Source: Candidatus Hermodarchaeota archaeon
GTDB taxonomy: Archaea > Asgardarchaeota > Hermodarchaeia > Hermodarchaeales > Hermodarchaeaceae
Assembly (NCBI GenBank): GCA_016839365.1
Contig: JAEOUH010000004.1
Span: 1-42,908 of the forward strand
Reading direction: 5' to 3'
DNA length: 42,908 nt
Below, piece by piece: positions 16,264 through 20,416 of this stretch. The notes beneath the pieces are model-generated. The model saw nothing but the letters and a program-made list of their open reading frames with translations, made no database searches and was not told where the DNA came from. The first letter of the stretch is position 1. Each line of letters begins with the position of its first letter. The translations under genes were made by a program, and so were the position numbers.

Positions 16264-18126
16264 ATGGCACTAGTTGACAAAGCTCTATTTCAAAAATTAA
16301 AGGTTACAGCTATTGTGACACTTAAATCAAAAACAAACAAATCATTAATTAATAAAGTTCATAACGAAACAAACTTCGCACAATTTGACCCCCCAGATGG
16401 TGCAATTGACAAAGTCGCTAATCTGCTAAAAGGAAAAGGATTCATCGTAGGACCTAAAGGCCGTTTCAGCATAGTGATTTCAGGATTATTATCGCTCTTC
16501 CATAAAAGATTCTCTGTTAACTTCGCCCGCGAGGAGCTCTCTATCAAAGTACCACCAAAAAACCAGCAATTAAGAATGAGGCATCCAAGACTTCATTATA
16601 TTGTACCAAAGGGTAAACTTGACCCGAAAAAACTAGGAGCTTGGGGAAAACATATTGCCGATATAACAATGGCAGGTGTCAGCCCCATTCAATGTCAAAT
16701 CCACGTGTTCCCACCACATATACCGCCACCACCTTTGGTGCCACCACCGCCTCCACCAATGCCATATGGTCGAATCACACCTCCGAGCGATATATCTCGG
16801 TTATTGAACGCTGATCTTATTCATCCGAAATACACAGGAAAAGGCGTTCATGTAGTCATGATTGACTCAGGATTCTGGCACGTCAAAGAGGATACAAAGA
16901 ACAATTTTCATCTATTTTATGAGTACAATTTATCCAGGCAAGTCCTTAATGAAATCGATGTAATCTTAGCTCCAAATTCAGCGGGTGGGATTTCTTGGAC
17001 TGATGCACAATTAGATGAGGGGGGACATGGTACTGCGATAGCTTCTGGATTGTTTTCAATAGCCCCTAATATCACGTTCACGATGATAAAAGCAGGTGCG
17101 ATTGCATTTAATTTCTTAGACTTAGCTTACTACAGTGGCATTCATCTGGTTGATGGTTTCTTATTAGCTCAAAATATACCGAATAGACCAAAACCAGATA
17201 TAATTCTATTTTGTGCTGGTGCACCTGAAGAATGGTGTGTGCCCGGGCAGACCCAAGGTAATCTGAAACAAGCATTAGAAGGCGCAATAGCCGATGAGTT
17301 GAATAAAGGGACAGTCATTGTTGCGGCATCAGGAAATACCCAAGAACCAGATGGAACTAGTCAAAATTGGGGACCAATCGTCTGGCCTGCTACGTACCCC
17401 GATGTTATTGCTGTAGGTGGTGCCTATCCTGAAGATCCAACACTTGCCCATTCGGATTTAACATGGATAGCCTCCGATGCAGCTTCTAGTGGCACCTCAG
17501 TTCTGCATCCCCCGCGTAAAGTCCCTGATGTGTGTGGATTATGTGGTCCTGTGGTAATAGAGGATTTGTTTGATAGATTTGGGAATCAAATTAAGGTCAG
17601 GTATCCTGCCCCCTATCAAGCCATGCCCACACAATGGGGCTGTATGGCAGATGATAAGATTGGCCAAGGTAATTGTTCATATGATGGGTGGGTTTATACT
17701 ACTGGAACCTCTTGTTCGGCGCCCATGGTGGCTGGTGTTGTAGCGCTGATGCTTGAGAGGATAAGGAAAATTAGTGGGCTAATACTAAGAAGGACCTCAG
17801 GAATTGGACTACGATTACCCCAAGTCTTGCTAAAACAGATCCCATTAGTGCAAGCCACTTACTGGAATAGTGCATCTATCCTGCTTCCACGCTATATAAA
17901 GGAGGTTCTGAAAAGAACTGCGATTGATGTACAACAGGGTGTTAGTGCGAATAACGAACCGACGGGACCAAATGAAGATCCTGCAACAGGTGCTGGTGTA
18001 GTCAATGCTGCTGAAGCCTGCAACTATATCAACTACCGTAATATGAGAAACTCCCTTACTTCAAGATATATCAACTTTAAAGCCTTTGATGGCAGTGCGT
18101 TCCAGTATGGTGATTTCTTCACATAA
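16264..18126 (+). CDS. Subtilisin-like (S8) serine protease with N-terminal propeptide-like domain and Pro-rich linker
   Basis: Asp VVMIDSGF, His EGGHGTAIASG, Asn VAASGNTQ, Ser TTGTSCSAPMVAGVVAL; linker PPHIPPPPLVPPPPPPMPYG; no obvious signal peptide. Confidence 0.9.
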   Translation: MALVDKALFQKLKVTAIVTLKSKTNKSLINKVHNETNFAQFDPPDGAIDKVANLLKGKGFIVGPKGRFSIVISGLLSLFHKRFSVNFAREELSIKVPPKNQQLRMRHPRLHYIVPKGKLDPKKLGAWGKHIADITMAGVSPIQCQIHVFPPHIPPPPLVPPPPPPMPYGRITPPSDISRLLNADLIHPKYTGKGVHVVMIDSGFWHVKEDTKNNFHLFYEYNLSRQVLNEIDVILAPNSAGGISWTDAQLDEGGHGTAIASGLFSIAPNITFTMIKAGAIAFNFLDLAYYSGIHLVDGFLLAQNIPNRPKPDIILFCAGAPEEWCVPGQTQGNLKQALEGAIADELNKGTVIVAASGNTQEPDGTSQNWGPIVWPATYPDVIAVGGAYPEDPTLAHSDLTWIASDAASSGTSVLHPPRKVPDVCGLCGPVVIEDLFDRFGNQIKVRYPAPYQAMPTQWGCMADDKIGQGNCSYDGWVYTTGTSCSAPMVAGVVALMLERIRKISGLILRRTSGIGLRLPQVLLKQIPLVQATYWNSASILLPRYIKEVLKRTAIDVQQGVSANNEPTGPNEDPATGAGVVNAAEACNYINYRNMRNSLTSRYINFKAFDGSAFQYGDFFT

Positions 18127-18189
18127 TCATGTACATTCATATTTTTATGATGCTGTTAACTTAAGATGCCATAGATTGGGAACATTAGA

Positions 18190-18210
18190 TGCTGCATGGG
18201 TGGTGCAGCG
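18190..18210 (+). promoter_or_regulatory. Candidate 5'-leader stem-loop, copy 1
   Basis: T-GCTGCA-TGGGTGG-TGCAGC-G; 57 nt before ATG at 18267. Confidence 0.6.
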
Positions 18211-18257
18211 ATGTTTCATAAATCCCTCCACCTTCAGGAAATCTAGGAAAGTTTAGC

Positions 18258-19238
18258 GTGACAACTATGGACGAGATTGATAAGAAACTCATATTCGAAC
18301 TACTCGTTGATTATCGGGCTTCTTATCAGTCCATGGCGAAGAAACTCGATTTATCTGTGAACGGTGTGAAGAAACGGTTTGAACGGTTGAAAAGTGTGGG
18401 TATCATTCGTGGTGGGCTTTTGGTACCTGTGCCTAGGATGCTAGGGAGTGAGGAGTGGGTGGCGATTTTACGCATGGAAGGATCGAGTACCTCAGAAGAA
18501 CAGCTGGGTAGAGTGGGCGCACACCGTTTGGTTCGAGCAGGGAGTATTTTAACCGATGGAAGCATGCTATGCTTTGGTAGTGTTGGAGGAGCAAAAGACC
18601 TTCAGGAGATTGGGAGTTATTTGCGCCAAGTCCCTGGAGTAGTAACTGTAGAATTTCACACCGTTTTGAATGATCCAGGAAAGAAGTGTGAGTTGACTAT
18701 GGCTGATTTGAAAGTCCTCCGCTGTTTGCGCGAAGAGCCGCGAATACCAATCAGCGAGATTGCCCAACGAACTGGGTTGACACCACGTCGCATCCGGAAA
18801 ATACTTGTAAATTTATTTGGGGAAAACGGTTCGGAGATAACTTTTTACTTGAATTGGGAACCGCGAGGCGTGGCGCACCCCAATGAGGTGTGTTTTCGTC
18901 TGATGGTTTCGTGGAATTTAAACGCCGGCGGATATACGGCATTCATTATTAGGGTTAAGCATGCAGAAGGCAGTGAAGCCCGAAGTCAGATTGTCAATTG
19001 GTTGAAACGCTCATATCCGTTTGAGTTCTGGTATGCTTATGCGTCGGCCTTCGAACCTGTGATTTTTTGCATATTCATGGTTGAGCATTTACGTGAATCA
19101 ATTGACATAGCGAGTGCTGTGACACAATTACCGGAAGCCACTGATGTGTATCCGATTTTCGGATATCCCACGAAAGTCTTTCGAAGCCAAATAGATGACT
19201 ATTTTGAAACACTCTTCAAACAGCTAGATGCGAAGTGA
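18258..19238 (+). CDS. Lrp/AsnC-like two-HTH transcriptional regulator, paralog 1
   Basis: DEIDKKLIFELLVDYRASYQSMAKKLDLSVNGVKKRFERLKSVGIIRGG and second HTH LTMADLKVLRCLREEPRIPISEIAQRTGLTPRRIRKIL. Confidence 0.85.
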   Translation: MTTMDEIDKKLIFELLVDYRASYQSMAKKLDLSVNGVKKRFERLKSVGIIRGGLLVPVPRMLGSEEWVAILRMEGSSTSEEQLGRVGAHRLVRAGSILTDGSMLCFGSVGGAKDLQEIGSYLRQVPGVVTVEFHTVLNDPGKKCELTMADLKVLRCLREEPRIPISEIAQRTGLTPRRIRKILVNLFGENGSEITFYLNWEPRGVAHPNEVCFRLMVSWNLNAGGYTAFIIRVKHAEGSEARSQIVNWLKRSYPFEFWYAYASAFEPVIFCIFMVEHLRESIDIASAVTQLPEATDVYPIFGYPTKVFRSQIDDYFETLFKQLDAK

Positions 19239-19370
19239 TGGACCTGGTTACTCATCATCGAATCGATTTTTGTACGACTTTTTCTTGTTGAGTATTTCTA
19301 GTAATATCCAGTCTAGGGCTTGTATTTTTAGGTAAGGACCTTATAGTAAATCTGGATTCGGACATTGGAA

Positions 19371-19391
19371 CGCTGCATGGGTGGTGCGGCG
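19371..19391 (+). promoter_or_regulatory. Candidate 5'-leader stem-loop, copy 2
   Basis: C-GCTGCA-TGGGTGG-TGCGGC-G; 57 nt before ATG at 19448; loop identical to copy 1. Confidence 0.6.
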
Positions 19392-19438
19392 GTGGTTTCA
19401 CAACGTCATCAAATCGATGTAAACCAGATTAGGTAGGT

Positions 19439-20416
19439 TTGGGAAGTATGGACGAAATTGACAAGAACATCATCTTCGAGTTGTCTGTCAATTATCGTGT
19501 ATCATACCAGACTATTGCAAACAAATACAACCTCTCGGTGAATGCGGTAAAAAAACGTATACAGAAGCTCAAAAGTGACGGGATCATTCGTGGGGGGTGG
19601 TTAGTTCCGATGAATGCAATGTTGGGGATGGAATCTTGGGTTGCGCTGGTAAGAACGGAGGATCCGATTCCCTCGGATGCATTCTTGGATGGTATTGGAG
19701 CACACAAGTCGATCGATTCAGCAAGTATTCTCACGGATGGAAGCATTCTCTGCTTCGGACATTATGCTGGTGCCAAAGGTCTTGAGGAAATTGGTACATT
19801 CTTACGTCAAACTCCAGGTGTTATATCGGTCGATTTTCACACAATCTTATCTGAACCAGGTATGCGTTGTGAATTATCCTTATCAGATTTGAAGGTATTA
19901 CAGTGTTTACGACAGGACCCAAGAATGTCTATCAGTGATATATCTCAAAACACCAGGCTTACACCTCGTCGAATCCGAAAAATCATCCAAAATTTGATTG
20001 ACGAAAAAGGCTCCGAACCAGAACTCTATCTGAACTGGGACTCACGGGGTGGAAGCCGGCCTGATCAAGTGTCCTTCAAGCTTAGTGTGAATTGGGACTT
20101 GAATGCAGGAGGTCACACGGCCTTTATGATAATCATCCGTCACGAAGAAGGTAGAGAATTCCGATCTAAGATTGTTGATATTCTTAAAGAGACCTATCCA
20201 TTTTGGTTCTGGTATTCGTATGCATCGGCCTTTGAACCAGTCATTTTTTGCGTATTTGTGGTTGAGCACATGAGGGAAGCAGGCGATATAATTGAGACCT
20301 TGCGGCAAACACCCGAGGTTGTTTCCGCTAATGCAATTTACGGATATCCAAGCCGACGATATCATAGTGTCATTGATGAGTATTTTGAACAACTATTCAA
20401 ACGCCTAGAAGGCTAG
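19439..20416 (+). CDS. Lrp/AsnC-like two-HTH transcriptional regulator, paralog 2
   Basis: Co-linear homolog of 18258..19238 along its whole length (DEIDKNIIFELSVNYRVSYQTIANKYNLSVNAVKKRIQKLKSDGIIRGG). Confidence 0.85.
   Translation: MGSMDEIDKNIIFELSVNYRVSYQTIANKYNLSVNAVKKRIQKLKSDGIIRGGWLVPMNAMLGMESWVALVRTEDPIPSDAFLDGIGAHKSIDSASILTDGSILCFGHYAGAKGLEEIGTFLRQTPGVISVDFHTILSEPGMRCELSLSDLKVLQCLRQDPRMSISDISQNTRLTPRRIRKIIQNLIDEKGSEPELYLNWDSRGGSRPDQVSFKLSVNWDLNAGGHTAFMIIIRHEEGREFRSKIVDILKETYPFWFWYSYASAFEPVIFCVFVVEHMREAGDIIETLRQTPEVVSANAIYGYPSRRYHSVIDEYFEQLFKRLEG

Follow-up and report, generated by a model that had tools for sequence, protein, structure and literature searches.

A conserved hairpin, probably an mRNA leader stem-loop, precedes two paralogous Lrp/AsnC-like regulator genes in an archaeon

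Two tandem genes for Lrp/AsnC-like proteins, here called A and B, are each preceded by a copy of the same short hairpin within the 42,908-nucleotide stretch of archaeal DNA that was analysed (the window). The balance of the evidence tips modestly toward a cis-acting stem-loop in the 5' untranslated leader of each mRNA. Selection on the element, its robust fold, its presence ahead of these two genes alone, and a covarying stem-loop in the leaders of a sister group of regulators together make RNA the most likely form in which it works. We infer the transcription start, the presence of the element in the mRNA, its effect on expression and its binding partner.

The regulator genes and their genomic setting

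18267 to 19238, forward strand: gene A, a tandem HTH-RAM-HTH-RAM Lrp/AsnC-like protein of 323 aa (Pfam, AlphaFold2, Foldseek)
19448 to 20416, forward strand: gene B, a paralog of A with a 59% identical protein (sequence comparison)

The combination of an N-terminal HTH with a RAM domain that marks the Lrp/AsnC family is found twice in both A and B, which are internally duplicated proteins with two HTH and two RAM-like domains. Gene A has Pfam matches to HTH_24 and HTH_AsnC-type families, and its AlphaFold2 model reached a pLDDT of 93.0. The top whole-chain Foldseek match was the siroheme decarboxylase NirDL (E 1e-13, TM 0.56), followed by Lrp/AsnC regulators. The likeness to NirDL (PDB 4ch7, 4czc) lies in the tandem HTH-AsnC fold; identity is 14-15%, and the A/B family retains basic recognition-helix residues, which would suit DNA binding. 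Because the recognition helices are intact, with their basic residues retained across the regulator family, A and B are read as DNA-binding regulators.

About ten paralogs of these regulators are present in the same genome. Its 25 Ras-family matches (18 with E below 1e-29), its two adjacent Snf7 genes and a CDC48 gene inside the window point to an Asgard archaeon; no archaeal 16S was found in the genome bin.

Sequence, rarity and conservation of the hairpin

18191 to 18209, forward strand: leader hairpin copy A, GCTGCA-TGGGTGG-TGCAGC (sequence, motif search, folding)
19372 to 19390, forward strand: leader hairpin copy B, GCTGCA-TGGGTGG-TGCGGC (sequence, motif search, folding)

Both 19-mers were found exactly where the initial annotation had placed them, and its distance of 57 nt from the end of the hairpin to the start codon was confirmed for copy A (ATG at 18267) and copy B (ATG at 19448). 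The identity of the two spacings, which it had also emphasised, is partly expected, since the region aligns without gaps.

The 13-mer core of the element, GCATGGGTGGTGC, has two exact matches in the genome (2,225,025 bases), and these are the two leader copies; with one mismatch allowed there were two more matches, and a reversed-pattern control gave none. No further copy of the hairpin 19-mer with up to three mismatches occurs in the window (expectation 0 in 100 shuffles), and the other genome sites matching the palindrome GCTGCA-N7-TGCAGC with one mismatch lie within ORFs, none of them being intergenic. A regulon-wide motif was rejected on the grounds that neither the exact core nor one-mismatch palindromes are present in other intergenic regions. 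The element is a conserved, gene-specific stem-loop 5' of a coding region, with only two copies, one per paralog.

The leaders of A and B share a run of 16 contiguous identical nucleotides, against at most 11 nt anywhere in the alignment of the coding regions. At fourfold-degenerate sites that encode the same amino acid, 19/73 are identical (26%), meaning that silent divergence is saturated; the flanks of the hairpin are 39% identical upstream and 47% identical (27/57) in the spacer. The asymmetric centre TGGGTGG, identical at 7/7 positions between the copies, is as well kept as the arms. Because the 16-nt identity stands against saturated silent sites, the element is under purifying selection and is not a remnant of recent duplication. 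The two copies differ by T.G to C-G at the base of the stem and T-A to T.G within it. That both differences preserve pairing, which had been put forward in favour of RNA, was borne out; as both are single-sided transitions, they give weak support to RNA and do not constitute covariation.

Predicted folding and position in the leader

Each hairpin is predicted to form 8 pairs around a GGGTG loop. The extra outer pair noted earlier for both copies (T/G in A, C/G in B) was recovered, together with an inner T-G pair. In each copy the inner 7 pairs had pairing probabilities above 0.98; for the outermost pair the value was 0.34 (copy A) and 0.93 (copy B). Relative to dinucleotide shuffles, the local hairpins are unusually stable (z=-3.05 for A, z=-3.39 for B), and the leaders as a whole are not (z=-0.20 and z=-1.14). 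A general excess of leader structure across the regulator family was not adopted, the stability of these leaders being marginally above that of control genes (p=0.057).

Larger structures that would enclose the hairpins were also predicted:

18174 to 18224, forward strand: possible extended leader stem-loop of gene A (outer GATT/AATC, middle GGAACAT/ATGTTTC, apical hairpin)
19355 to 19415, forward strand: possible extended leader stem-loop of gene B (outer GATT/AATC; predicted folding alone)

For gene A the extended form had an MFE of -18.6 kcal/mol (z=-2.37 on 18171-18228), with a probability of only about 0.1 for the GATT/AATC outer stem in longer context; for gene B the outer stem fell to about 0.005 once downstream context was included. 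In longer context, then, neither outer stem proved robust.

Two putative promoter elements and two small reading frames share this region:

18140 to 18147, forward strand: putative TATA box of gene A, TATTTTTA
19323 to 19330, forward strand: putative TATA box of gene B, TATTTTTA
18196 to 18246, forward strand: small uORF from hairpin A, MGGAAMFHKSLHLQEI, probably incidental
19377 to 19436, forward strand: small uORF from hairpin B, MGGAAVVSQRHQIDVNQIR, probably incidental

The 8-mer TATTTTTA lies at a similar distance 5' of both hairpins and nowhere else in 18001-19500. If these copies are TATA boxes, the start site would fall upstream of the hairpin, before the GATT...AATC stem, with transcription expected to begin near 18170 (A) and 19353 (B). 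The uORFs, which in both copies begin MGGAA inside the hairpin, are probably incidental.

With this geometry, a stem-loop would lie near the 5' end of the mRNA, at constant distance from the start codon and once per regulator gene. The level of the regulator would then most likely be set at the mRNA, through ribosome loading or mRNA stability, and the constant GGGUG loop would probably be recognised by a protein or an RNA, possibly by the regulator itself. The fuller version of this last idea, in which paralog-specific leader stem-loops are bound by the regulators themselves and transcription factors autoregulate through RNA and not DNA, is considered unlikely.

Related leaders in other genomes

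A covariance model built from both copies, a check that the initial annotation had proposed, was searched against 59 genomes; it recovered both copies and yielded no third copy and no covariation among orthologs. Because no third copy was found, the A/B hairpin is without true covariation. One match in genome G041 (E 0.0084), antisense within a ribosomal S4e-like gene, was taken as chance. A contig search for a closer ortholog of A or B returned only distant Lrp N-termini, and a search for viral copies of the hairpin found none.

The regulator L026, from the congeneric genome G003, is a syntenic relative that adjoins the same acyl-CoA dehydrogenase, is 49-52% identical and has recognition helices nearly the same as those of A and B. 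Its leader lacks the A/B motif, as well as any counterpart to the ATG of the A/B uORFs; at the expected leader position it has a stem-loop of its own, GGATTCGAACCCT...AGAGGGTTAATCC (L026:1399-1438, z=-3.18). Short candidate hairpins with weak energies were present for L027, L045 and L028. Immediately upstream of gene A, the window contains a subtilase-family peptidase of 620 aa (16264-18126), and in G003 no such gene separates the dehydrogenase from the regulator.

Orthologs of another paralog in this regulator family (L015, L029, L030, L031 and L080, one each from genomes G000-G004) form a sister group with a leader stem-loop of 58-59 nt in 5/5 congeneric genomes, the copy of L015 lying at L015:1409-1466. 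This stem-loop begins 29-30 nt past a TTAAA box and ends 34-35 nt short of the start codon. Its outer helix, CGAG[T/C]AG/CT[A/G]CTCG, contains one compensatory pair (T-A to C-G), for which the shuffle control is weak, as 105/500 shuffles match this single variable pair. All members share a TCCC bulge and an AGC/GCT helix, the latter displaced by 3 nt in L015. Comparison of the five sequences by hand revealed further exchanges in the apical helix: beside the CTGA/T[C/T]AG core, G-C in L015 and L031 stands against A-U in L029 and L080, and pairing is likewise retained in the swaps C-G vs G-U and G-C vs U-A. In L015, L029 and L080 the apical helix has a predicted probability of about 0.9-1.0, as does its core in L031; the helix of L030 is weaker. 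A covariance model of the sister element gave strong matches to these five leaders only (E 1e-22 to 1e-28), and the four weaker matches that were inspected, each inside an ORF or overlapping the start of a gene, were taken as chance. With one compensatory outer pair and several apical ones, against two single-sided changes in the A/B hairpin, the sister leader stem-loop appears the better supported of the two elements, and it lends support to the RNA reading of the A/B leader. A conserved TGCAG...TTTA..TTAAA promoter-like block precedes the stem-loop in the sister group.

Alternative explanations

Next to the promoter of a gene for an HTH protein, an inverted repeat looks like a classic operator. 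In the main rival reading, which we regard as possible but not probable, the palindrome is a DNA site by which the Lrp/AsnC-like proteins A and B regulate their own promoters and those of one another. GCTGCA/TGCAGC forms a good dyad in both copies, the recognition helices are intact, the two HTHs of each chain might read the two GCTGCA half-sites, and the predicted location just past the start site would fit a repressor or roadblock; TGCAGC is also present 5' of the TTAAA box in L015, L029, L031 and L080. Archaeal Lrp proteins moreover mostly autoregulate, with imperfect inverted repeats as binding sites (PMC2995911), and the operators of LrpA, Ss-LrpB and Ptr2, like the A/B dyad, are inverted repeats close to the promoters of Lrp-like genes (PMC2995911). 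However, known archaeal Lrp sites are imperfect inverted repeats of 13-17 bp with an AT-rich centre (PMC2995911), whereas the A/B dyad spans 19 bp around a G-rich, asymmetric and conserved TGGGTGG. The complete conservation of this centre also speaks against an operator; the argument is not decisive, because a site lacking symmetry could suit a protein whose two HTHs differ. Other intergenic copies are absent from the genome, and in the sister group another stem-loop, one that covaries, stands at a fixed distance from the start codon. Finally, because the recognition helices of L026 are near those of A and B, a DNA operator should persist in L026, and it does not.

The remaining readings are minor. 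Leader-peptide translation of the MGGAA uORF could steer the main ORF: ATG GGT GGT GCR GCG is present in both copies with the A/G difference at a third codon position, the main ATG lies 71 nt 3' of the uORF ATG in both, and the stop codon precedes the main ATG. Conservation, however, reaches 5' of the uORF ATG (GCTGC) and includes the wobble positions of GGT GGT, the peptides diverge past five residues and L026 has no ATG in its leader, so that this explanation is very unlikely. A shade more doubtful is the view that tandem duplication or local gene conversion left the element as a relic without function. The tandem arrangement of the paralogs and their alignable upstream regions would suit this view; it would have to account for 16 identical nucleotides amid saturated silent sites and diverged flanks, and a conversion tract so short and centred on the hairpin is unlikely. 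Least probable is a transcription attenuator or terminator hairpin: copy A appeared terminator-like in a simple scan, but shuffled sequence yields one such match by chance (1.0), and a T-run is lacking in copy B, where the tail reads GTGGTTTCAC.

Relation to known systems and significance

The initial annotation had viewed the hairpin as a regulatory leader element, perhaps an RNA thermometer, a riboswitch-like structure or an autoregulatory element; a conserved element that is most likely RNA remains from this proposal, autoregulation is possible, and the thermometer and riboswitch classes are not supported. RNA thermometers such as ROSE and fourU are hairpins in the 5' leader, as the A/B element would be, but this class was rejected because the start codon and the SD lie outside the A/B hairpin. 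No riboswitch signature was detected, and no Rfam family matched above its gathering score in the window.

Archaea have few known cis-regulatory RNAs (PMC7247131). The leaders of archaeal S15 and eL15 ribosomal-protein genes (PMC7247131) are likewise short, structured and lineage-restricted, and there, too, the controlled protein binds nucleic acid; they differ in that A and B encode Lrp/AsnC-like proteins, whose leaders match no Rfam family. Limited full-text searches found no published leaders of Asgard transcription factors. Gene-specific leader stem-loops are known as a kind, and the A/B hairpin is a further candidate case in an unusual place. Two candidate leader elements in one regulator family, in the archaea closest to eukaryotes, offer a small test case for control at the level of the mRNA.
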